Source: Vibrio penaeicida
Lineage (GTDB): Bacteria > Pseudomonadota > Gammaproteobacteria > Enterobacterales > Vibrionaceae
Assembly (NCBI RefSeq): GCF_019977755.1
Contig: NZ_AP025144.1
Location: 2,480,001 to 2,544,000, forward strand
Length of the DNA stretch: 64,000 nucleotides
Direction of reading: 5' to 3'
The position numbers and the translations under genes were made by a program. This document shows positions 2,549-58,298 of the stretch, one piece after another (within the stretch, counting starts at the first letter, position 1; every line of letters starts with the position of its first letter). Under the pieces are notes generated by a model. That model had not been told where the DNA came from. It did no database searches and saw only the letters and a list, made by a program, of their open reading frames with translations.

Positions 2549-3319
2549 TTAATAAATTGAAGATATAAACTGCTGAAGCCTTTCGGATTCAGGGTTTGTA
2601 AATAGTTTAGATGGATCTCCCTGTTCTTCCACCAAGCCTTGATGCAAAAACATGACATGATTAGAAACATCGCGAGCAAAAGCCATTTCATGTGTGACGA
2701 CAAGCATGGTTCTGCCCTCTTCCGCGAGATCACGCATAACCCCCAACACTTCACCAACAAGCTCCGGATCTAGTGCCGACGTCGGCTCGTCAAACAACAT
2801 AACTTCTGGATCCACAGCGAGTGCTCTTGCAATTGCCGCACGCTGTTGTTGCCCACCAGAGAGGTGACCAGGGTAATAATCTTTACGTTCGTAGAGACCC
2901 ACTTTTTTCAGCAGTTCTTCTGCCTTTTCTTTCGCTTCCGCTTTTGGCACACCCAATACATGAACAGGTGCTTCCATGACGTTCTCTAAAACGGTCATGT
3001 GTGACCATAGGTTAAACCCTTGAAAAACCATTGCTAAACGAGAACGGATTCGTTGCACTTGCTTTTCATTTGCAGGGAGAGATTCGCCGCGACGATTTTG
3101 TTTCATTTGGATCAACTCGCCGTTAACCCATATTTCGCCAGCAGTAGGCGTCTCAAGTAGGTTGATACATCTAAGGAAGGTACTCTTTCCTGAACCGGAA
3201 GAGCCGATAATTGAAATTACGTCCCCTTTATGGGCTTCTAGTGAAATGCCTTTTAAAACTTCGTTCTGTCCGAATGTTTTGTGCAGTTCTTTTATATCCA
3301 GCGCGATTACATCCTTCAT
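2549..3319 (-). CDS. hisP: Basic amino acid ABC transporter ATP-binding protein, HisP family
   Basis: This is the cytoplasmic ATPase that powers the importer. In its 256 residues the Walker A motif GSSGSGKST (39-47), the signature LSGGQQQR (153-160) and Walker B VMLFDEPTS (173-181) are intact. NLWSHMTVLENVMEAPVHVLG is almost the HisP text. It is the first gene of the four-gene operon hisP-hisJ-hisQ-hisM. An AGGGAG ribosome site lies 9 bases before the ATG, and an ArgR-like operator lies about 130 bases upstream. Confidence 0.92.
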   Translation of the reverse strand: MKDVIALDIKELHKTFGQNEVLKGISLEAHKGDVISIIGSSGSGKSTFLRCINLLETPTAGEIWVNGELIQMKQNRRGESLPANEKQVQRIRSRLAMVFQGFNLWSHMTVLENVMEAPVHVLGVPKAEAKEKAEELLKKVGLYERKDYYPGHLSGGQQQRAAIARALAVDPEVMLFDEPTSALDPELVGEVLGVMRDLAEEGRTMLVVTHEMAFARDVSNHVMFLHQGLVEEQGDPSKLFTNPESERLQQFISSIY

Positions 3320-27369: not shown

Positions 27370-28357
27370 ATTCTTTCATTACCTCATTTATTCTTTGTAA
27401 TATCTTATCAGTATCTTGTGCAGGTAGGGTTGCAGAGACCGGTAGATACCACCAGTTATCCTTTGCAAAAGGCAAACATTTGACAGCATCTTTTTCTGTC
27501 ATAATAAGCGGCTTACCTGCCAATTCAATGGCACTAATCTGTTGTTCTGTCATTGCCTGATGATCAGCAAAACCATGTTCCGCTAAAACATTCAATCCCA
27601 TACTCTTCAAGGTTTCGAAAAAGCGAGGAGGATGACCAATTCCCGCCATTGCCACTGCACATTCGAGTTCAACAGCACTTTTCTGTTCATTCGTTACCAA
27701 GTTGATGGCTTTAGAAGGCTCTAGAATCATTGGAAATTCGTTTGCACGAGCACTGCCACCGTTGGTGATAACAAAGTCCACTTCATCTATCCGTGAAACA
27801 GGCTCACGTAGTGGTCCCATAGGGATAAGCTTCTCATTTCCCATACGCCTAACACCATCGACAACAACAATTTCAATGTCTCTGTTTAATGCGTAGTGCT
27901 GCAAACCATCGTCAGTGACAACAATATCGACCCCTGAATCCAAGAGCGCTTTTACAGCATTGCTTCGGTTCGGATCGACGACAACAGGGGCATTTGTACG
28001 ACGATGAATTAAAAGAGGCTCATCGCCACAATGGTCTGGGCTAGAATCCAGCGTTACCAAAAACGGATAACTTGGCGCTTTAGCTCCATAGCCCCGTGAT
28101 ACCACCCCTGGCTTAAGCCCTTTAGCCTGTAGCATTTCCACAAGCCATACCACGACAGGTGTCTTGCCATTCCCACCCGCGGTAATGTTACCAACGACGA
28201 CGACAGGAATGGGGGCGTGGTAACGTGCTTTTTTTTGGCTCAAGAAATCTTGTTTACGCTTTGTACTGACAAAACCAAACAACAGGCTGAGCGGCCATAA
28301 TATGGGCCAAAGCAAAAAGCTCAGCCAATGTCGCTCAAACCAGATCTTCTCTACCAT
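27350..28357 (-). CDS. lpxK: Tetraacyldisaccharide 4'-kinase
   Basis: This membrane-associated kinase phosphorylates the 4' position of the lipid A disaccharide. It has 335 residues. An N-terminal hydrophobic segment (about 10-25) is followed by a P-loop in [17 protein letters not shown] (about 56-72). [12 protein letters not shown] contains a conserved Asp-Asp-Gly-Leu-Gln-His block. Its ATG overlaps the msbA stop codon by one base (TAATG), showing translational coupling, and its end overlaps ycaR. Confidence 0.96.
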
Positions 28358-30111
28358 TAATTTGACTCACTAAATTGAATGTAGTAAAGCGACGCATAAG
28401 CTCCGTCTTCCGACATCAATGCATCGTGCTGACCACGCTCTATCACTTTCCCATCTTCAATAACTAATATCTCATCGGCATTTTCAATGGTAGACAAACG
28501 GTGTGCAATCACCAAGACTGTCTTATCTTTTTGCAACACATCCAACGCAGCTTGAATTGCGCGTTCAGATTCAGTATCCAAAGCAGACGTGGCTTCATCA
28601 AGAATCAAAACTGGAGCATCACGCAGCAATGCACGTGCAATGGCGAGCCTTTGCCTCTGCCCACCAGATAGAGTCGTTCCATTCTCACCGATAACCGTGT
28701 CGTACCCGTTATCTAGTGCCTCGATAAACTCATGCGCATACGCGAGCTTGGCCGCTTCAATGATTTGTTCTTTTGTAAACTTATCTTCCGCAGCATAAGC
28801 AATGTTGTTTGCTACCGTGTCGTTAAACAAGTGAACGTGCTGAGACACGATACCAAAATGGGTGCGAAGATTCTGTAAGTCATAATCTCGTACATCATGT
28901 CCATCTAGAGAAATTGAACCTGAATCTAAATTGTAGAATCGCGTAAATAGGCTCGCTATCGTACTTTTTCCGGAACCTGAGCGGCCAACCAATGCCACTG
29001 TTTTCCCCGACGGTATATTGAAGCTGACATCTTTTAACGCGGGAGTATCTTTTGTTGGATAAGTAAAAGTGGCGTTTCGTACCTCTACATCGCCTTTCAC
29101 CTTTTCTTTAACTAACTTACCTTCATCATTTTCTGTTGGCATATCCATTAAGCTAAACAACGTTTGGCAAGCCGCCATACCGCGCTGGAAGTCGGACATA
29201 ACCGAAGTTAATCCACGAAGAGGTCGAAGCATACTTAACATCGCAGAAAAGACGACTGTAAACGTACCCGCGGTCAACTCTGCGCGAATAGAATCAACAG
29301 AAGCTAGGAACAACACAGTAACTAACGCAGAAGAGCCGATCATTTGTATTACAGGGCTCGAGAGTTGTGAGACCACGACCATCTTCATATTTTGCTGACG
29401 CATCGCATTGCTGACGTGATTGAATCGCTCTTCTTCTACCGGTTGACCACCGCAACTCAATACAACTTTGTGACCGTTCAACATCTGCTCCGAAGAAGAG
29501 GTGAGGTTCCCCATTTCAGTCTGCATATTTTTAGAAATTTTGCGGAATCGACGAGACACAACACCAATAGCGATCGCAACAATTGGTCCCACAACCAACA
29601 GCACTAAAGAGAGCTGCCAGCTGCTCCATACCATCAAACCGATCAGCCCTAACAAGCTTGCAGTTTCGCGGACGATATTGACCAATGCTTGACTCGTTGC
29701 CCCTGCCACTTGCTCCGTATCATAAGTAATGCGAGAAAGTAGTCGACCAGTAGACTCCCTGTCGAAAAAGGAGACTGGCATTTGCATAAAATGATTAAAC
29801 ACCTGCCGGCGAAGCTTCATTACCACATTATTGGAAACCCAGCTCATAAAATACGCTGACACAAACCCACTTCCGCCACGGACGATCATTAACACCAGAA
29901 TGATGATCGGCATTGTGCGTAAAAACTCAGAGTCCGACTGACCAAAGCCTTCGTCTAGTAAAGGCTTAAGTAAAGAAAGCATGTATGTATCGCTGAGCGC
30001 ATTAATCACCAATGCAATAATCGCGATGAAAATACCGGCTTTGTATGAGGAAATATAAGGCCATAAGCGCTTAAAGGTTTGAAAGGTCGATTGATCTATT
30101 TCTTGCGACAT
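28357..30111 (-). CDS. msbA: Lipid A export ABC transporter/permease MsbA
   Basis: This homodimeric inner-membrane flippase moves core-lipid A to the periplasmic leaflet. With the start at [19 protein letters not shown] it has 584 residues, close to the 582 of E. coli. The frame extends 6 codons further to a TTG, but the alignment favours 30111. Six membrane helices lie in the first 310 residues. The ATPase part has [25 protein letters not shown] and [12 protein letters not shown]. It is coupled to lpxK by a one-base overlap. Confidence 0.97.
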
Positions 30112-30139
30112 AAGAAAGGTCATTGTCAAAAAATTCCGC

Positions 30140-34336: not shown

Positions 34337-35035
34337 TTAGTGCGCGACGCGCATTTCATTTTCGTGAACCAGTAGCCCATCTTGCATGTGCAGCTTTCGG
34401 TCCATCTTGTCAGCAAGTTCATTGTCATGGGTAACAACAAGAAATGCCGTACCAGACTCTCGATTTAATTCACGCATAAGGTCATAAATAGCCAAAGCCG
34501 TAGTATGGTCTAGGTTACCAGTTGGTTCATCGGCAAGTACCAGTGCAGGCTCATTCACTAAAGCTCTGGCGATAGCCACTCTTTGCCGTTCGCCACCAGA
34601 AAGTTCCGCAGGTCGGTGCGCCAACCTATGTGCTAACCCTACTTTAGTGAGCAAGCTCTCTGCTTTTGATTTCGCCTGCTTTGGAGATGAACCGCCAATC
34701 ATAAGAGGCATAGCGACGTTTTCAACTGCGGTAAAATCAGCTAGAAGGTGATGAAATTGATACACAAAACCAATGTGTTGATTACGCAGCTTCGCTTGCT
34801 GATTGCCCGATAACTTCTTTAGGCTTTGCTCTTGAAACGAGACTTCTCCCTCAGAAGCATCATCTAGCGCTCCCAAAACATGCAATAAAGTGCTTTTTCC
34901 AGACCCCGAAGAACCTACAATAGAGACCAGCTCTCCTGCGTCCAATGCAAAGCTCACCCCTTTCAGAACTTCGGTTTCCACACTCCCTTCGCGATAGGTT
35001 TTACAGACAGAATCACAAAGAAGTAATTTACTCAT
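34337..35035 (-). CDS. lolD: Lipoprotein-releasing ABC transporter ATPase LolD
   Basis: This is the ATPase of the LolCDE lipoprotein-sorting machine. The conserved start [17 protein letters not shown] at 35035 gives 232 residues; a longer frame reaches 35098 inside lolC but is not needed. [18 protein letters not shown] (Walker A), [15 protein letters not shown] (signature) and [12 protein letters not shown] (Walker B) are intact. Its start codon overlaps the lolC stop by 8 bases (ATGAGTAA), which couples translation. Confidence 0.95.
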
Positions 35036-36236
35036 AACGAAGTGCCTCAGCAGGTTTGACGGACGAAGCCCGATAAGAAGGATACAACGTGGCAACAATA
35101 CTCAATGCCACTGCAAGTATGATGATGGTGAAAACTTGCGAATAATTGATAAGAACGGGCAGTTCACCACCGACGGCAAACAAGCTCAAATTAAACGTTT
35201 CTAATACACCGTTTATGTTTGTCGCAAGCGCTATACCTAACAAGCCCCCCACCAAAGAGCCAATAATTCCGCTACTCGCCCCCTGAACAATAAAGACAGT
35301 CATTACCTGAAAATTGGATAAACCCTGCGTTTTTAGAATGGCGACTTCAGCTTGCTTCTCCATTACCACCATAATCAACGCAGAAATAATATTAAATGCC
35401 GCAACAGCAACAATAAGCCCTAGCATCAGACCCATCATATTTTTTTCCATCTTAACGGCTTGGAATAGCTCACCTCTTTGCTCGCGCCAATCGCTCCATT
35501 TCCACCCACTAGGTAATGAGAGCGAGGCATATTCAGACACGATGAACGGATCATCAAAACTCAGTCTCCAACCCGTAATCGTGTCGGAAGAATATCGAAG
35601 CAGGCGACCGGCATCATTAATATTCGCAACCATCAACTGTGCATCCACATCGGATCCCGTATTAAATACGCCGGCCACAGTAAAATTTCTTTGGCTAGGA
35701 ATTCGTCCTAAAGGAGTGAATCGGCTCGCACCTGTCACCATGATCCTCACTTTATCGCCAACCCTCGATTTTAATTGACGAGCCAAGGTATGCCCCAAAA
35801 ATACTCGGTATTCCCCCTGCTCCAGCTGCTCTAGTTTTCCACCAAGCAAATGTTTTCCTATGGGATCATTTAACGCAGGGTCAATGCCTAACAGCATACC
35901 AGCACTTAACTGAACTGGGCTTTGTATAACCGCTTCAGACCGAACAATTGGGGAAGGTTTGGAAGATAATGAATACTGAGACAGAAATTCTGGTGGTGCA
36001 TCAGTTTTTTCCGCTTTTCCGGAATCCTGACTAATAACTGCATGAGGTAATACCCCCAAGATTCGTCCTTTCAATTGCCCTTCAAATCCATTCATTACGG
36101 ATGTGACCGTAATTAGCGCCAGAACACCAATCGTTATGCCAGCTGTCGACATAAAAGAAACAAAGCGACTGAAGCGATCTCCTGACCTTCCGCGCAAATA
36201 ACGCAACCCGATGTAAATTGAAATGGGATGGAACAT
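35028..36236 (-). CDS. lolC: Lipoprotein-releasing ABC transporter permease LolC
   Basis: The partner permease of LolE that docks the chaperone LolA. Starting at [20 protein letters not shown] it has 402 residues. Frames extending to 36287 add 17 codons with no ribosome site; an AAGG 10 bases before 36236 supports the shorter start. It has the four-helix layout with [22 protein letters not shown] in the first helix and a large periplasmic region. It opens the lolC-lolD-lolE operon. Confidence 0.94.
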
Positions 36237-45127: not shown

Positions 45128-45994
45128 TCAATTAAGTGTTTTCAACAACTCCATTTTAAGCTGCTGGAATCGTTCATAATACAAATCGTCGCCCCACAAC
45201 TGGTAACCTATTTGATACCACAACATCCCTAACAGTCGGATTTTAGGTAACCACAATTCTACATTCTGTTGCCACTCACCCATATCGGACAAATCGATCC
45301 CGCGATAATGACAATACATTGCTACCGCGATTTCAGGGCTAAGACCGGAAACTTCAATCGTCATTGCAAGATCCATCCTAGGATCACCAATAGCCGAATA
45401 TTCCCAATCGATGACACCAATCCCATCGCGCGCTCGAATTAAGTTATAAGCACCTAAATCCAAATGACATAAGGTTTTGAGTGATTCAGGTAAATACAGT
45501 GGTTCACGATGCTTTTTATATAGACTAACTAAGGCTTCGTCTTTCTGTTCGTTAGCAAGTTGCATCCACAAGTGATCAACTTTTTCGGAAAACAGCAGTT
45601 TTTGAATGGGCTTATCGTTTATCTGGACGTTATGAATCGTTGCGAGAGTATTCAAAAGTTCATCTTGAGAAATTTGATCGCCAACTGGTTGCCCGTCAAT
45701 CCAATTGACGAGTAATCCACGATCATTGTTTAGAACTGGATTTGGTGAGAATTGATAAGAGGAAAGCGCCACTAGAAGGTGGTATTCGTTAGCACGTGAA
45801 ATACCGAAAACTGACGTACTTTTTGAAACTGGTCGCCATACATATTGGCGATCCTGATGGGATATTTTCCAACATCTATTGCTAAGCCCACCAGAGAGAA
45901 GTTCCATCTCTTCTGGTGGGTCAGGAAAGTAGTCGGTAAGTGATACTAAGGAATCATCGAGTTGAACTGCCTCTTGCCATCCCATTTTTGCCAC
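45128..45994 (-). CDS. Phosphotransferase-fold kinase, thiamine kinase (ThiK)-like
   Basis: A 288-residue kinase of the APH/choline kinase fold. LSGGLSNRCWKIS is the nucleotide-binding strand, and LCHLDLGAYNLI and VIDWEYSAIGDPRMDLA are the catalytic loop and Mg-binding motif. In E. coli the equivalent place between ycfP and lpoB is held by thiK, the thiamine salvage kinase, which supports that role. The sequence does not prove the substrate. The first codon used is GTG; an ATG three codons in is an alternative start. Confidence 0.7.
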   Translation of the reverse strand: MAKMGWQEAVQLDDSLVSLTDYFPDPPEEMELLSGGLSNRCWKISHQDRQYVWRPVSKSTSVFGISRANEYHLLVALSSYQFSPNPVLNNDRGLLVNWIDGQPVGDQISQDELLNTLATIHNVQINDKPIQKLLFSEKVDHLWMQLANEQKDEALVSLYKKHREPLYLPESLKTLCHLDLGAYNLIRARDGIGVIDWEYSAIGDPRMDLAMTIEVSGLSPEIAVAMYCHYRGIDLSDMGEWQQNVELWLPKIRLLGMLWYQIGYQLWGDDLYYERFQQLKMELLKTLN

Positions 45995-49239: not shown

Positions 49240-51231
49240 ATGAAGGGTTCAGTCATACGGCGCATGTATGCGGGCTTTGCACTCATTGTAGTGCTCTTCA
49301 TTGCGACCATCACTATCATGATGGGTGGAATGGAAAAAATACACACCAACTTCGAGACGGTTTCCAACACGTCTTTACCTTTAGTTTCAATGTCTAACCA
49401 AACCAGTGTTCGGTTACTTTCTGCTGATAAAGCATTTAAGGATTATCTGACCACACAAAGTCAATCTCGAATGGACAGCTCCAAAGCAGCGTTCATCGAG
49501 GCTCAAAATAATTTCCAAGAAGCTTTGATCGCTTTGGAAAAAGCCAGCCGTACTATTCCTGAAATCGCTCCTAGAATCGAGGAGTTACGCCAGATGGAAG
49601 GTCAATACTTTGAGGAAGCCATCGAAGCGATGGACAACTACAAAGCCATGTTTTCGGCTCAAGAAGATGTGCAAAAATCATCTCGCAACTTCCAAAGATT
49701 GCATACAGAGCTCAGCGTTCGCATGAAGGAGTATGTGAACAAGCAAGATAACATCGCTGTAAAAGTCATGTCAGGGAGCTATTTCGATAAACTGAAAGAC
49801 TCTCAAACAGTCACGTCTGATGCACTTGCGAGCAGTGATACCGAATTTGTAAAAGCAGCCGTAAACAAGAATAAAAAGGCCGTTACTCATTTAAATTACG
49901 CATACCGTGGGTTGGTAAATCAACTTCCTTCTTTAAAAGAAGTCTTCGATGAATCCGTTAGCCAGTTTACTCGCGATGTAGGAAAAGCGGGCGGCGTACT
50001 TGATCAGCACTATACCTATTTAGTTGCACGTCAAAAGCTTTACGACAATATTGCTAATTTAGCAATTAAAGTCGATGACTCGATGCAGCTACTTGAATCA
50101 TTCAATGAAACCGCTTCAAACCAGCTTGGAAAGTCGCTTGAAGAAGCGGGAACAGTGTACGAAGAAGGCTATGTTAAGGCTATTGGTATCGGTGTCATTG
50201 TCTGTGCCATCGCCCTTGGAATTGGCTACCACGTTGCACACAGTGTTCGAGAACCGCTAACGCGAATTTTGGCAACATTAGAAAGCCTCACTGCTGGAGA
50301 CATGACAAAACGGATCGACATCCGCTACAACAATGAATTCAGCCGAGTAAGCCGCCATATAAACTCACTGGCCGACAATCTTCACGATATCTTGCAAGAA
50401 CTCAATGAAGCTGCCGATGAACTAACCGAAGTGGCGTCTGCAAATAGAAGTACCTCTGTCGGAGCTCAAAGCCAACTGAATACTCAAAGAGAGCAAACCG
50501 CAGGAGTTGCTACTGCGATGACGGAAATGGAACACTCGGTTACCGAAGTTGCGCAAAGTGCACAAAGCTCATCTGATATGGTTCATAAAGTTGAGTCTGC
50601 ATCCGAGTCTGGCAGAAAGATTATGAATGCGAATATTTCAACGATCAATCAGCTTGAAACCCGTTTAAATGACTCGGTTAATGCCGTTTCTCAACTTCAA
50701 CAAATGAGCAGTGAGATTGGCTCTATATTGGATGTTATTAGAAGTATTGCTGAGCAAACTAACTTGCTTGCTCTAAACGCAGCCATTGAGGCTGCTCGCG
50801 CTGGAGAACAGGGTCGAGGCTTTGCCGTGGTTGCGGATGAAGTTAGGGTGTTAGCTCAAAAAACAACGCATTCCACCAGTGAAATTGAAAGCATGATCAG
50901 CAACCTCCAAAGCAGCTCTCAATCAGCCAATGAAGTGATAAAAAGCTGCATGAGTGATATGGAGCAATCTGTTACTCAGGCCTCCGATGCGAACAGCGCC
51001 ATGGAAGAAATTCAGGCTCTGATTTTAGAGATTAGCCATATGAGTAATCACATTTCGCAAGCGGCAGCAGAGCAACAAGCGACATCCAGCAGTATTGCTA
51101 GAAGCTTAAACGACATCAACAGCATAGCGAATCAAAGCTATGAAGCAATGTCGGAAATTGCCACGGTAAGCCAAGATCTAACGCGTCTTTCCAGTCAGCA
51201 AGGTGATATTGTTCACCGCTTTAAGCTTTAA
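49240..51231 (+). CDS. Methyl-accepting chemotaxis protein
   Basis: A 663-residue chemoreceptor. Helix one spans about 10-32, the large helical ligand domain about 33-310, helix two about 311-330, then HAMP, then the signalling coiled-coil. The tip reads [20 protein letters not shown] and [22 protein letters not shown] lies 6 bases before the ATG. It is monocistronic. The signal sensed is unknown. In Vibrio cholerae a chemoreceptor also precedes the DUF1887 gene, so the pairing is conserved. Confidence 0.95.
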
Positions 51232-51255: not shown

Positions 51256-51284
51256 CTAGCCCACTTTCAAAGTGGGCTTGCTTT
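51256..51284 (+). terminator. Terminator of the chemoreceptor gene
   Basis: AGCCCACTT (51258-51266) pairs with AAGTGGGCT (51269-51277) with a very short loop, followed by TGCTTTAT. The T-tract is weak. Confidence 0.65.
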
Positions 51285-51466
51285 ATCGATAAGAACCGTT
51301 TTATCAACAATGCAAATGAACCGTTCTTATTTTCTCTTCTAAGCTTTAAAGGATGCAGTTTTCAATGCATAGCTCTTGTTATTTATTTACCCCATCCCCA
51401 TAACTTAGTTACTTGCTGATTTTTCAACTCTCATTTTCCAGCAGGTCCGTTTATTGAGGACATGAA

Positions 51467-52630
51467 ATGGCCGTACATGTAGGTATTATCGATCAAGATC
51501 CTGTGCGACTGGTGACGCCACTTTTGGATCACAGAACAGTAAGTACGCATATCGTATTCATTGGTGATAAGAACCAAGAATCAATGTACCAAAGACTCTA
51601 CTCGATACTAGCGCCTAGAGGCATAACTTCCGAATTTTACGAAATACCAAGTGCGGTTAATACATCAAAAATTAAAAAATCCATTCAAGCACTTGCGGAA
51701 GATTTACAAACTCGAAATGTGGAAGTAAAACTCAATGCCAGTTGTGGATTAAGGCATCGATTACTGTCTGTTTACGAGGTTTTTCGCACTTATCACTGGC
51801 CAATTTTTGTGGTTGAACCTTTCAGTGACAAGCTTTGTTGGCTATACCCAGACGGTCGCGAAGATGCCCAAGTACAAGATCATATAAAAATTGAAGATTA
51901 CCTCACCATTTTTGGGGCGAGAAGCGAGTTTTCTGAACAAGTCATTCCAGAGCAGCTCGATCAAAAACTGTATCAATTAGGTGAACGCTGGGCAGGAAAT
52001 GCCCTTGAACTTGGTCCTGGTCTGGCTACCCTCAACTACTTAGCGACGACCTGTCGTAAAGAACAGAGACTGGATGTATCCCTGACTGAAAAGCAACAAG
52101 GTTACCGAGAGCTAGACATGCTCATTTCTGATCTTGTTGATACTGAACTGGCTACCTATGAAAATGGAATCTTAACGTTTGCCAACGAAGACGCACGGCG
52201 CTTTTCAAATGGTGAATGGTTGGAAAACCTAGTACACAGCACCGTAAAACAAATTCAGGATGAACTTCCTACCATTCAAGATCGCTCATTGAACGTTCAG
52301 GTCTATCGCCAATTGGGTGAAAAAGAAGTACGGAATGAATTAGATGTCGCGACAGTCGTCAATAACAAGTTGCACATTATTGAATGTAAAACGAAAGGCA
52401 TGAGAGACGACGGAGATGACACACTTTACAAATTGGAGTCACTCAGAGATTTGCTGGGAGGCTTGCAAGCTCGTGCTATGTTGGTGAGCTTTCGACCGCT
52501 TCGTCACAATGACATCACTCGTGCGGAAGATTTAGGGTTAGCATTAATCGGACCCGATGAGTTAAAAGATCTAAAGTCAAACCTCACTCATTGGTTTAAA
52601 GATGCTGGTGGGCACGAAGATTTAGACTAA
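51467..52630 (+). CDS. DUF1887 protein: CARF-like sensor fused to PD-(D/E)xK nuclease
   Basis: A 387-residue cytoplasmic protein. The N-terminal third (1-130) has a Rossmann-like strand pattern and LNASCGLRHRLLSVYEV near 89-105, where CARF domains have their ligand-contacting loop. The middle (about 160-250) resembles a winged-helix linker. The C-terminal part has the full restriction-nuclease signature: Glu253 in GEWLENLV, Asp293 in NELDVATV, and Glu306-x-Lys308 in IIECKTKG. Family knowledge: the Vibrio cholerae homologue has a solved CARF-wHTH-nuclease structure, and the related Card1/Can2 enzymes are cyclic oligoadenylate-activated nucleases. No cas genes or arrays are present, so the activating signal here is unknown. 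Confidence 0.85.
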   Translation: MAVHVGIIDQDPVRLVTPLLDHRTVSTHIVFIGDKNQESMYQRLYSILAPRGITSEFYEIPSAVNTSKIKKSIQALAEDLQTRNVEVKLNASCGLRHRLLSVYEVFRTYHWPIFVVEPFSDKLCWLYPDGREDAQVQDHIKIEDYLTIFGARSEFSEQVIPEQLDQKLYQLGERWAGNALELGPGLATLNYLATTCRKEQRLDVSLTEKQQGYRELDMLISDLVDTELATYENGILTFANEDARRFSNGEWLENLVHSTVKQIQDELPTIQDRSLNVQVYRQLGEKEVRNELDVATVVNNKLHIIECKTKGMRDDGDDTLYKLESLRDLLGGLQARAMLVSFRPLRHNDITRAEDLGLALIGPDELKDLKSNLTHWFKDAGGHEDLD

Positions 52631-52657: not shown

Positions 52658-52686
52658 CAAAAAGGGCATCATTGATGCCCTTTTTC
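52658..52686. terminator. Bidirectional terminator between the DUF1887 gene and udp
   Basis: AAAAGGGCATC (52660-52670) pairs with GATGCCCTTTT (52674-52684). It has A-run on one side and T-run on the other and ends both convergent genes. Confidence 0.9.
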
Positions 52687-52706: not shown

Positions 52707-53465
52707 TTACAGCATTTTACGTGCAGCCTCGACTACAATTTTGATCGATTTCGCTTCTGTCTCTTTCAGTGTGCTGTGATCAGGCGTTTCTTTTTGAGTA
52801 CGGTTAATAATAACACCTGCGACGCAGCCCGCTTTAAGCCCAGAGCTCGCACACATGGTTAGCAGTGTGGCAGATTCCATTTCAAAGTTTAGAACCCCCA
52901 TGTCCTGCCACTCTTGCATAGAACCTTGGAAGCGCTTAACAACACGACCAGAAAACGTATCGTAGCGCTCTTGCCCTGGGTAAAAAGTGTCACTTGATGC
53001 CGTTACACCTGTGTGCGCAGTCGCGCCAGCTTCAACAACCGCTTCCTTCATCGCTGTCGCGATGTCAAAGTCAGCTACAGCTGGGAATTCCATTGGTGCA
53101 AAATGAAGGCTAGCACCGTCTAAGCGAACAGACCCGGTGGTTACAATCATATCGCCCACATTCACATGCGGTTGAATTGCACCAGTAGTCCCTACACGTA
53201 GGAAGGTGCGGACACCCAGTTGAGCAAGCTCTTCAACAGCAATAGAAGTTGAAGGACCGCCTATACCTGTAGAACAAACAACAACAGGCTTTCCATCTAA
53301 TTCTGCACGGTACAACGTATATTCACGGTGGCTTGCCAAAAATACAGGGTTTTCCATTTGCTCAGCAATTTTTTGAACTCGAGCAGGATCACCAGGGATG
53401 ATAGCCAATGTAGAACCAGCAAGAGCTTCTTTGGTAACACCTAAGTGAAATACAGCTTCAGACAT
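52707..53465 (-). CDS. udp: Uridine phosphorylase
   Basis: This enzyme splits uridine with phosphate into uracil and ribose-1-phosphate. From [19 protein letters not shown] it has 252 residues. AAGGAG lies 6 bases before the ATG at 53465; the frame runs 23 codons further without support. [14 protein letters not shown] and [16 protein letters not shown] are the nucleoside phosphorylase motifs, and [15 protein letters not shown] carries the active-site Glu-Met-Glu. It is monocistronic and ends at a shared terminator. Confidence 0.97.
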
Positions 53466-53568
53466 AAAGGACTCCTTTGTTGTCGTTTTGTTTCTGTCAC
53501 CCCAATAAATTATAAAAGGAATTCTATCCTTCACTTTATTTTTTCACTTTCTCCAGAAAAAAGGAGAA

Positions 53569-56500: not shown

Positions 56501-56974
56501 TTACCTCAAACGACTGAACACTGTTTGTTGATCCAATTGTAATTGATACGATTCGTATTCCATTCCTGCATCAAAAATGTATTCCGTTACCAGCCTTCGA
56601 GCACAGTCGACCAACTCGGTTCCATTCCACGGTTTTTCGAAGTAGCTTTCTATACGTGCTTTGTTAATGGCACTGATGGTGTCTTGGTGTGTGGCTTGCC
56701 CTGTGAGAAGTACCTTTTTTGTATGAGTAAATCGTCTATCCTCAGAGATCTCCGTGAGTAGTTCGACACCCGACTTACCGGGCATAACGTGATCAGAAAT
56801 GATCAGTGCTATATGTTCTCCCTTTGCGTCCAAATCATCGATGAGTTCAAGAGCCTCTTCTGCGGATTCGCAGTCCTCTATCTCTAACCAGTCCTCCAAT
56901 GGCGCAAGGTCTTGCACCACAGCACTCAGCACTTCTCGTTGGTCATCTACGCAAATAACATTAATTTTTTCCAT
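56501..56974 (-). CDS. Response regulator receiver protein
   Basis: A 157-residue CheY-like protein with a short C-terminal extension but no DNA-binding output domain. MEKINVICVDDQREVLSAV supplies the acidic pocket; the phosphoryl Asp is in LIISDHVMPGKSG and the conserved Thr/Lys near KVLLTGQA and EKPWNG. GGAGG lies 6 bases before the ATG at 56974, inside the end of the kinase gene, so the two overlap by 14 bases. It is last in the transporter-kinase-regulator operon and ends just 35 bases before the zntA promoter. Confidence 0.9.
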   Translation of the reverse strand: MEKINVICVDDQREVLSAVVQDLAPLEDWLEIEDCESAEEALELIDDLDAKGEHIALIISDHVMPGKSGVELLTEISEDRRFTHTKKVLLTGQATHQDTISAINKARIESYFEKPWNGTELVDCARRLVTEYIFDAGMEYESYQLQLDQQTVFSRLR

Positions 56975-58298
56975 TACCAACCTCCATGGGTAATTTGATT
57001 CTGAAAATGGTTTTTTCAGGGTCACTTTTTACCACCACCGTTCCCTGATAACGGCTCACAATTCGTTTCACTATTGAAAGCCCTAGCCCTAACCCAAACG
57101 ACAACCCGCCTTTCTTGGTCGTAAAGTTGGGGTGAAAGATTTTTCTACGGATACTTTCTTCTATTTCAGGTCCATTATTGGCGATCGTCACCTTGATGTG
57201 TGCGTCGCTCACACGAGTAATAATATCGATTCCAGGATTATTGGTAGGCGTTAAGGCATCGCAGGCATTCTTCAGTATGTTTGCCCAAACTTGAACCAAC
57301 TCACTTTCACTTCCGGCGATCACCGCTGTCGCAGCTGGGCTAAAACGAACATCTATTCGGCGCAAGTCATTTTGAAGTAGGGCAAGCGCTTTATGAATAC
57401 TTTCGTTCACGTCAACAGGCTCGCTTACTTCAGAGTCTCCCCTTCCAAGCTGCTTAACCGATTTAACAATGCTAACCGCATGGCGAGAAGCCACTCTCAT
57501 GTCATGTAAATCGCGCCCAACTCCCCAATATTTCACCGCCTCTTCCGGTGTATTAAGCCAATCTTGGTTTAAGTCGTTAACCGACAAAGCTCTGGCTAAG
57601 GATTTCGCGATCTTTCTATCTAAGCCGTGTTTGTCAATAATCTCTTTTGCCCGTGCGCGAACTTCTGCTGAACCCACGTTTTGACCTTTCATTAACCCTG
57701 CATCGACGAACTGACTGGCTCCGGGATGCAGCTCTTCGAGTAAGGCAAGAATTACATCTTGTAGACGCTCCGTTTTGCTGCTTAATACACCCACCGCATT
57801 ATTCAACTCATGAGAAATCCCCGCGGCCAGCTGCCCCAATGTTGTCATCTGCTCAGCGGTATGAAGTTGGGTAAGAGCTTGTTCTTTTTCTACGGATTCT
57901 TGCATTGCCCGTTTTTGGCGACGAGATAACTCATTCAATATAACGGGTGTGAATTGTTGGGTTAATGACCCCAAGCAGTCTTCGTCTATCGGGCGTGTGT
58001 CGTTGTCAATCCAAGCCAACACACTTGGGGATCGAGAAACAACACTGGATGAGGCTAGGTAATTACCAGAAAAAAAACTATGAACGCCAATAAATGCCCC
58101 TTCTGACGCACTAAAGACCTTCGTGTTTACATTGGTCTCGGCAAAAGAAACTAAGCCTTCTAATTCCCCAGAAACCACATAAAAAAGCCTGCGATTTTCT
58201 TCACCTTGCACCAGTAATGGTTCACCTGCTTCTAAAGATAGATAGCATTGAGGATTAGAGAAATAGTGTTCAACAATCTTTTCTACACTGTTATGCAT
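56961..58298 (-). CDS. Soluble histidine kinase with cyclic-nucleotide-binding-like sensor
   Basis: A 445-residue cytoplasmic kinase with no membrane helices. The N-terminus (about 15-110) is a cNMP-binding-like beta barrel (YLSLEAGEPLLVQGEENRRL). A coiled linker leads to GQLAAGISHELNNAVG, where the His is the phosphorylation site. The catalytic domain has NILKNACDAL (N box), IANNGPEI (G1), FHPNFTTKKGG and GLGLGLSIV (G2). The gene begins 4 bases after the SLC13 transporter, whose stop overlaps its AGGA ribosome site. The pairing suggests that the transporter and kinase act on one substrate pathway. Confidence 0.88.
   Translation of the reverse strand: MHNSVEKIVEHYFSNPQCYLSLEAGEPLLVQGEENRRLFYVVSGELEGLVSFAETNVNTKVFSASEGAFIGVHSFFSGNYLASSSVVSRSPSVLAWIDNDTRPIDEDCLGSLTQQFTPVILNELSRRQKRAMQESVEKEQALTQLHTAEQMTTLGQLAAGISHELNNAVGVLSSKTERLQDVILALLEELHPGASQFVDAGLMKGQNVGSAEVRARAKEIIDKHGLDRKIAKSLARALSVNDLNQDWLNTPEEAVKYWGVGRDLHDMRVASRHAVSIVKSVKQLGRGDSEVSEPVDVNESIHKALALLQNDLRRIDVRFSPAATAVIAGSESELVQVWANILKNACDALTPTNNPGIDIITRVSDAHIKVTIANNGPEIEESIRRKIFHPNFTTKKGGLSFGLGLGLSIVKRIVSRYQGTVVVKSDPEKTIFRIKLPMEVGNGKN

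Follow-up and report, generated by a model that had tools for sequence, protein, structure and literature searches.

CARF domains are known to receive ring nucleotides made by CRISPR systems, so what is a CARF nuclease doing in a genome region that holds no CRISPR locus? The question is raised by a gene at positions 51467 to 52630 of a 64,000-nucleotide stretch of Vibrio penaeicida DNA (RefSeq assembly GCF_019977755.1, contig NZ_AP025144.1, 2,480,001 to 2,544,000), referred to hereafter as the window. An initial annotation, made from the sequence alone, had read the gene as a CARF-type sensor fused to an intact PD-(D/E)xK nuclease, which might answer another nucleotide signal, perhaps in defence or stress, and had called it the best candidate in the window for an undescribed system. 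The setting outside CRISPR stood, and the pocket proved unlike those that bind cyclic tetra-adenylate (cA4); the claims of an undescribed system and of defence were not supported. The gene is the orthologue of VC1899 of Vibrio cholerae, an orphan already known, whose structure is solved (1xmx) and for which assays have been published. With moderate confidence, we favour the reading that it encodes a CRISPR-independent core nuclease, built of CARF, winged-helix and intact PD-(D/E)xK parts, which a cellular ligand switches on for nucleic-acid cleavage. A literature search found no account of family-wide constrained core status together with a changed but held pocket and, in many Vibrio species, a structured leader.

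The protein, its active site and its CARF pocket

The reading frame (51467–52630, forward strand) is open from an ATG start and encodes 387 amino acids. Pfam places PF09002 (Card1_endonuc, DUF1887) at residues 240–378 with 208 bits against a curated cut-off of 26.4, the top PADLOC model (CARF4--CARF_PDDEXK) scores 488 bits over residues 1–378, and residues ~1–130 of an AlphaFold2 model align to CARF chains in VIA-align. NCBIfam has no family for the protein, and a viral structure library gave weak matches only, the best TM-score to the query being 0.27 among the matches listed. About one residue in five differs from VC1899 (PDB 1xmx, DUF1887, PF09002), with no difference seen at the named functional residues; for the V. 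cholerae protein the comparison was by phmmer and structure alone, and the tree described below does not include it. Conservation was scored on 109 distinct sequences of 128 full-length orthologues (>55% identity, at least 370 residues). PMC7969007 and PMC1462988 are cited throughout from excerpts.

51467..52630, forward: VC1899 orthologue with CARF, winged-helix and PD-(D/E)xK nuclease parts (reading frame, Pfam, PADLOC, phmmer, structure)
51467..51916, forward: CARF (Rossmann-like) sensor domain, residues 1–150 (AlphaFold2 model and VIA-align; the border at 150 is our choice, the structural rows covering about residues 1–130)
51491..51508, forward: pocket segment D9-Q-D11-P-V-R14 (D9, D11 and R14 invariant in 109/109; pocket role from PMC7969007)
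51734..51757, forward: pocket loop N90-A-S-C-G-L-R-H97, at the TGGTK-like site of relatives (invariant in 109/109 save C93, 108)
51917..52183, forward: middle region, residues 151–239, containing the winged helix-turn-helix reported for 1xmx (PMC1462988; model helices)
52184..52627, forward: PD-(D/E)xK nuclease domain, residues 240–387 (PF09002 match, residues 240–378)
52223..52225, forward: Glu253 (invariant in 109/109)
52337..52390, forward: active site E291, D293, E306, K308 (invariant in 109/109)

Asp293, Glu306, Lys308, Glu253 and the loop Asn90–His97 (NASCGLRH) all lie where the initial annotation had placed them. The PD-(D/E)xK signature is intact, with D293, E306 and K308 unchanged in every orthologue, so the lack of conservation that the annotation had named as counting against it failed to appear. 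Glu253, assigned there to an extra conserved helix, falls inside helix 241–266 of the AlphaFold2 model. Glu291, beyond the residues named earlier, is also present and invariant; the published active-site mutant of VC1899 alters Glu291 and Asp293 (PMC7969007). In vitro, according to the same excerpts, VC1899 is a weak, cA4-independent RNase, and DNase activity was not seen.

The annotation's remark that NASCGLRH replaces TGGTK-type text was borne out, as most relatives from outside the Vibrionaceae are TGGTK-like there and Can2 reads lnvtggtk. The VSAQPTPN- and LNATGGTK-like stretches of many relatives in the class become IDQDPVRL and LNASCGLRH in the Vibrionaceae; set against Can2, Card1 and Cdn1, the window protein thus has IDQDPVR where most class relatives show a VSxQPxPN-like segment, and ASCGLRH for the TGGTK-like loop. 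The cA4 contacts of Can2, Ser19, Thr42, Lys99 and Tyr118, correspond to Asp9, Asp34, Arg96 and Val115 (PMC7969007), and the set is not found in the window protein, its character being retained solely in Lys to Arg. Of the contacts that hold phosphates, the window protein lacks two, having Asp9 for Ser19 and Val115 for Tyr118, and retains the character of one, with Arg96 for Lys99; the ligand would therefore be smaller or less acidic than cA4. Judged by these residues, this is not a cA4-type pocket, and the suggestion that another nucleotide is the trigger seems a fair one. Unlike Can2 and Card1, with their cA4 switch, VC1899 has been published as showing no cA4 response (PMC7969007).

The altered pocket is conserved. 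D9, D11, R14, N90, L95, R96, H97 and V115 are invariant, and six of the nine CARF residues that surround modelled cA4 (PMC7969007) never change, against 34/150 across the CARF domain (P 0.005, neighbouring residues not being independent). Since the pocket residues are invariant and substitution rates very low (see below), the pocket appears to be changed yet held by constraint in the Vibrionaceae. A copy of 43% identity, outside the alignment (G369), retains NASCG and then has HRKY instead of LRHR.

A guanine-type ligand such as cyclic di-GMP was considered from D9/D11 and R14. It is not claimed, because D9 occupies the position of the phosphate-holding Ser19 of Can2 (PMC7969007).

Distribution, constraint and the CRISPR context

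Within the Vibrionaceae, 290 of 296 genomes and 12 of 13 genera have a match, every best E-value being at most 4e-106. Five of the six genomes without one are small (G537, 3.1 Mb; G561 and G562, 1.0–1.1 Mb; G370, 2.1 Mb; G389, 2.6 Mb); the sixth, G371 (4.4 Mb, 94% complete), represents the sole matchless genus. Outside the family, matches were found in 2/56 other genomes of the order and 23/368 of the class, at 24–43% identity over the matched stretches. Phage records gave no match and plasmid records one, of 29.5% identity over half of the query, records very near the window's genome possibly having been left out of both sets.

Neighbourhoods were compared in 67 Vibrio loci for which 20 kb or more of sequence was available and in 14 further family loci, 12 of them from other genera; the named loci, the best-matching 80 of 210, are all Vibrio, Vibrionaceae or Vibrionales by title. 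An upstream block of four genes (hinT, a tetratricopeptide repeat (TPR) gene, ycfL and lpoB) is present in 67/67 Vibrio loci. Median identity to the window's proteins is 82.6% for the VC1899 orthologue, 82.6% for hinT, 80.7% for the ycfP-like gene, 91.3% for lpoB, 69.1% for the upstream methyl-accepting chemotaxis protein (MCP) and 60.9% for the TPR gene. The ratio of non-synonymous to synonymous substitution (dN/dS) has a median of 0.019 and a maximum of 0.057 (122 unsaturated pairs of 5886; 46 sequences). Neither the patchy distribution nor the mobile context of a defence-island gene was found. Because of its distribution, its fixed place in the genus Vibrio and its very low dN/dS, we conclude that the VC1899-type gene is a vertically inherited core gene of the Vibrionaceae under strong constraint, not a defence-island gene; these same observations tell against the annotation's 'perhaps in defence'.

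In print, VC1899 has been viewed as what remains of a type III CRISPR effector, degenerate, adrift and functionless (PMC7969007); the evolution of the gene does not match this picture. That view accounts for the weak activity in vitro, the missing cA4 response and a pocket unlike that of Can2 (PMC7969007). A relic would decay, however, and a gene kept in 290 genomes, with its catalytic residues unbroken in 109/109 and a dN/dS of 0.019, makes this explanation very improbable. Among the frames looked at, with those of many of the 290 not listed, one is split in two (G384; L157 and L165, the pieces in different frames), which is either a broken gene or an assembly error. Another genome (G655, contig 2; L160 and L187) has a second VC1899-type copy on another contig, 60% identical and with the same pocket loop.

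A different possibility is a constitutive nuclease of nucleic-acid repair or processing, whose Rossmann domain would not be a true signal receptor but would serve as a platform for the dimer or bind some common metabolite. It would suit a core gene that is probably transcribed alone, the comparison of the VC1899 nuclease domain with the nuclease EndoMS in PMC7969007, and the stronger constraint on the nuclease than on the CARF domain (dN/dS 0.010 vs 0.026). Nevertheless, invariance is commoner at CARF pocket positions than across the domain as a whole, and the crystal structures of the relatives Can2, Card1 and Cdn1 were determined with cyclic oligoadenylates, by the titles of their entries. 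We therefore hold a constitutive enzyme to be rather unlikely and prefer a ligand-switched one.

The window gave no sign of a CRISPR system, as the initial annotation had said: there are no direct repeats of at least 22 bases with copies at most 120 bases apart, and PADLOC matches (E ≤1e-10) included no cas model in 40 of the 43 other window frames of at least 170 amino acids, a nested frame and a two-component pair being excluded. A whole-genome check for type III and CBASS (cyclic-oligonucleotide-based anti-phage signalling) genes, proposed in the annotation, found 0 matches to repeat-associated mysterious proteins (RAMPs) and 0 to SMODS synthases in the source genome, synthases without a SMODS domain lying outside the search. 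The gene thus stands outside any CRISPR locus, and the type III system elsewhere in the genome that would have argued against the annotation was not found. No type III locus accompanies the gene as it would a Can2/Card1 effector, nor is an SMODS-type CD-NTase adjacent or elsewhere in the genome as for a CBASS effector, other synthase types being outside the search. A Cas10 palm model did give six weak matches in the source genome (best E 6.3e-5); because it also matches Escherichia coli and 253/296 family genomes, we read these, without a one-by-one check, as probable GGDEF proteins.

Across the family, RAMPs were found in 19/296 genomes and SMODS synthases in 28/296 (22 above the cut-off). 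One genome with RAMPs (G663) has a VC1899 protein nearly identical to that of the window. Outside the family, RAMPs are present in 18 of the 23 genomes with a relative, and in 11/23 a RAMP and the relative share a contig and are at most 20 kb apart, several of the others being fragmented assemblies; the count used one relative place per genome and 32 RAMP places, a second gene piece in G009 (on another contig, ~4 kb from a RAMP) being uncounted.

These figures bear on the idea of a defence effector that answers the nucleotides of come-and-go defence systems, be they CBASS-type signals or type III rings different from cA4. Kinship to Can2 and Card1 speaks for it, as does Cdn1, of the same fold and solved with cyclic tri-adenylate (cA3) and with cA4 (structure entry titles). 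The scarcity of SMODS synthases and RAMPs, with neither in the source genome (synthases without SMODS again apart), and the lack of phage matches, with a single distant match among plasmids, make it improbable, and a ligand of the cell itself is preferred.

Some Vibrionaceae also possess type III-linked members of the family. When 24 family genomes were re-searched, four further, distant PF09002 copies of 24–29% identity were found in three of them (G570 twice, G637 and G381), all at most 8 kb from a RAMP gene by coordinates. A fifth match, in G496, is weak and partial (E 2.2e-4), is not counted among the four, and lies in a genome without a RAMP match. In the tree, 27/27 VC1899-type rows form one clade (support 100/98) and share a common pocket signature, as expected of one orthologue group; the four distant copies fall outside it, three of them joining a wider group with the clade (99/95) on long branches. 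As the distant copies are RAMP-linked and outside the VC1899 clade, a CRISPR version and a core version of the same family are distinguishable even within one cell.

Three of the distant copies (L162, L163 and L164, in G570, G637 and G381) have CARF loops reading NLSEGRPG, NLTQGNTG or NVSEGRAG at the TGGTK-like site, possibly marking another ligand class within type III systems.

The leader stem-loop and the proposed switch

51412..51445, forward: leader stem-loop with arms CTTGCTG / CAGCAGG and a 20-nucleotide loop, found by comparison; the 3' arm ends 21 nucleotides before the ATG

The stem is unique in the window. Its typical Vibrio form is GGCTTGC, a loop of 17–54 mostly pyrimidine-rich bases, and GCAAGCC, placed 16–21 bases before the ATG and just before the ribosome site. 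A seven-pair stem was found in 69 of 77 distinct leaders (L056–L135), against a mean of 3.8 and a maximum of 8 in 20 rounds of dinucleotide shuffling. Among 16 further family leaders (13 from other genera, 3 divergent Vibrio) it was found in 2, both from other genera (shuffles 0.55).

The covariation count used 66 of the 77 leaders, after manual removal of 11 whose loops were long or odd (L088, L089, L093, L098, L102, L111, L112, L115, L122, L123, L125). Both-sided changes occur at 8 of 10 stem pairs, which 0/500 shuffles reached. The covariation score was 0.159 vs 0.127 in shuffles (0/500 as high) and fell to 0.029–0.094 when the stem was slid; both-sided changed cells numbered 33 vs 26.1 (21/500), further pair types 22 vs 18.9 (18/500), and paired cells 79.2% vs 77.1% (1/500), values that relatedness of the sequences alone can bring above such shuffles. 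Conservation in the stem is mostly plain, and the pairs at its outer and inner ends are often open. Support for the stem comes from comparison and not from folding energy, which is ordinary for the window leader alone (z -0.38; three others -3.54, -1.47 and -0.54, the last from a piece lacking the first bases of the 5' arm). Rfam gave no match on the leader up to E 1. By this comparison, the stem-loop is conserved among the closer Vibrio loci.

A genome-wide element was considered and rejected: of 27 genomes, 26 have 0–4 copies of the exact pattern and one has 9. Seven of the places are just upstream of the gene, and the others have no visible pattern and lie partly in repeats. A control pattern, the reverse of this one, was found in 4 genomes, once each.

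In the family, two CARF domains make one pocket across the dimer, and ligand binding rearranges the nuclease domains (family background and PMC7969007). By analogy, the window protein would act as a dimer. A member of the family of the CRISPR nucleases Can2 and Card1, it has exchanged the cA4-binding residues of its pocket for another, mostly invariant set. The ligand held between the two CARF domains would most likely be a small cellular compound, poorer in phosphate than cA4, and would switch on nucleic-acid cleavage for a house-keeping or stress response. RNA would be a likelier substrate than DNA, solely because VC1899 gave weak RNase and no DNase activity (PMC7969007). In many Vibrio species the leader stem-loop may also set output. 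More tentatively, a CRISPR effector may have been domesticated early in the Vibrionaceae, its pocket rebuilt for an endogenous ligand and its nuclease made a permanent part of physiology, with the stem-loop, in many Vibrio species, perhaps allowing the enzyme to tune its own mRNA.

Several points weigh against a ligand-switched core nuclease. The nuclease activity on record is weak, the VC1899 assays in PMC7969007 giving weak, cA4-independent RNase and no DNase activity. Pocket position D34 varies (D in 72, V in 28 of 109), Q10 is kept in 96/109 and P118 in 108/109; the P-value of 0.005 ignores the clustering of most pocket residues in two short segments, the aligned sequences lean to close relatives, and pocket invariance could reflect folding or the dimer instead of a ligand. 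The upstream block is specific to the genus Vibrio, being found in 0/12 loci of other genera (one with only ~3 kb upstream), and the stem was not found in the three more divergent Vibrio leaders.

If the reading is true, a domesticated CARF nuclease would amount to second-messenger signalling beyond immunity, with a CARF domain as the receptor. A family that maintains such a gene under strong constraint, while most of its genomes carry neither a type III system nor an SMODS synthase, suggests that everyday signals of the cell may also be read by CARF domains. The ligand question is directly testable, the structure of VC1899 being already solved.

Neighbouring genes

49240..51231, forward: upstream neighbour, the MCP gene (Pfam), adjoining the gene in 63/67 Vibrio loci
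51258..51278, forward: terminator-like hairpin after the MCP gene (consensus match only)
52659..52685, forward: terminator-like hairpin separating the gene from its converging neighbour (consensus match only)
52707..53534, reverse: downstream converging neighbour, uridine-phosphorylase-like (PNP_UDP_1, Pfam), adjoining the gene in 25/67 Vibrio loci

With terminator-like hairpins on both flanks, the gene is probably transcribed alone, as its own unit, with no partner gene at hand. Of 80 upstream stretches of 300 bases, 13 had CRP-like boxes (at most 2 mismatches) and 5 had LexA-like boxes (at most 3 mismatches), which gives no consistent site.

The 14 further family loci include one with the upstream block, of genus Vibrio, and ten with the udp-like gene downstream, nine of these ten from other genera (9/12). 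As the udp-like gene is common across genera and the upstream block confined to Vibrio, the gene's place is old and its left-hand neighbours vary by genus. Among the neighbour proteins, Pfam backs LpoB, UPF0227 and an APH-type kinase; ycfP, thiK, ycfL and hinT are our own labels.

An APH/choline-kinase-type gene (45128–45994, reverse strand) has a median identity of 41.7% and changes far faster than the neighbours in the fixed block. At 56501–58298, overlapping genes encode a response regulator and a histidine kinase with an N-terminal cyclic-nucleotide-binding domain; both are near the locus in 3/67 Vibrio loci and in 3/14 further family loci, these three being from other genera. The PADLOC mad3 model is matched by frames 2549–3319, 28357–30129 and 34337–35098 (reverse strand) with E-values of 1e-31 to 1e-37, most likely through a shared general domain.
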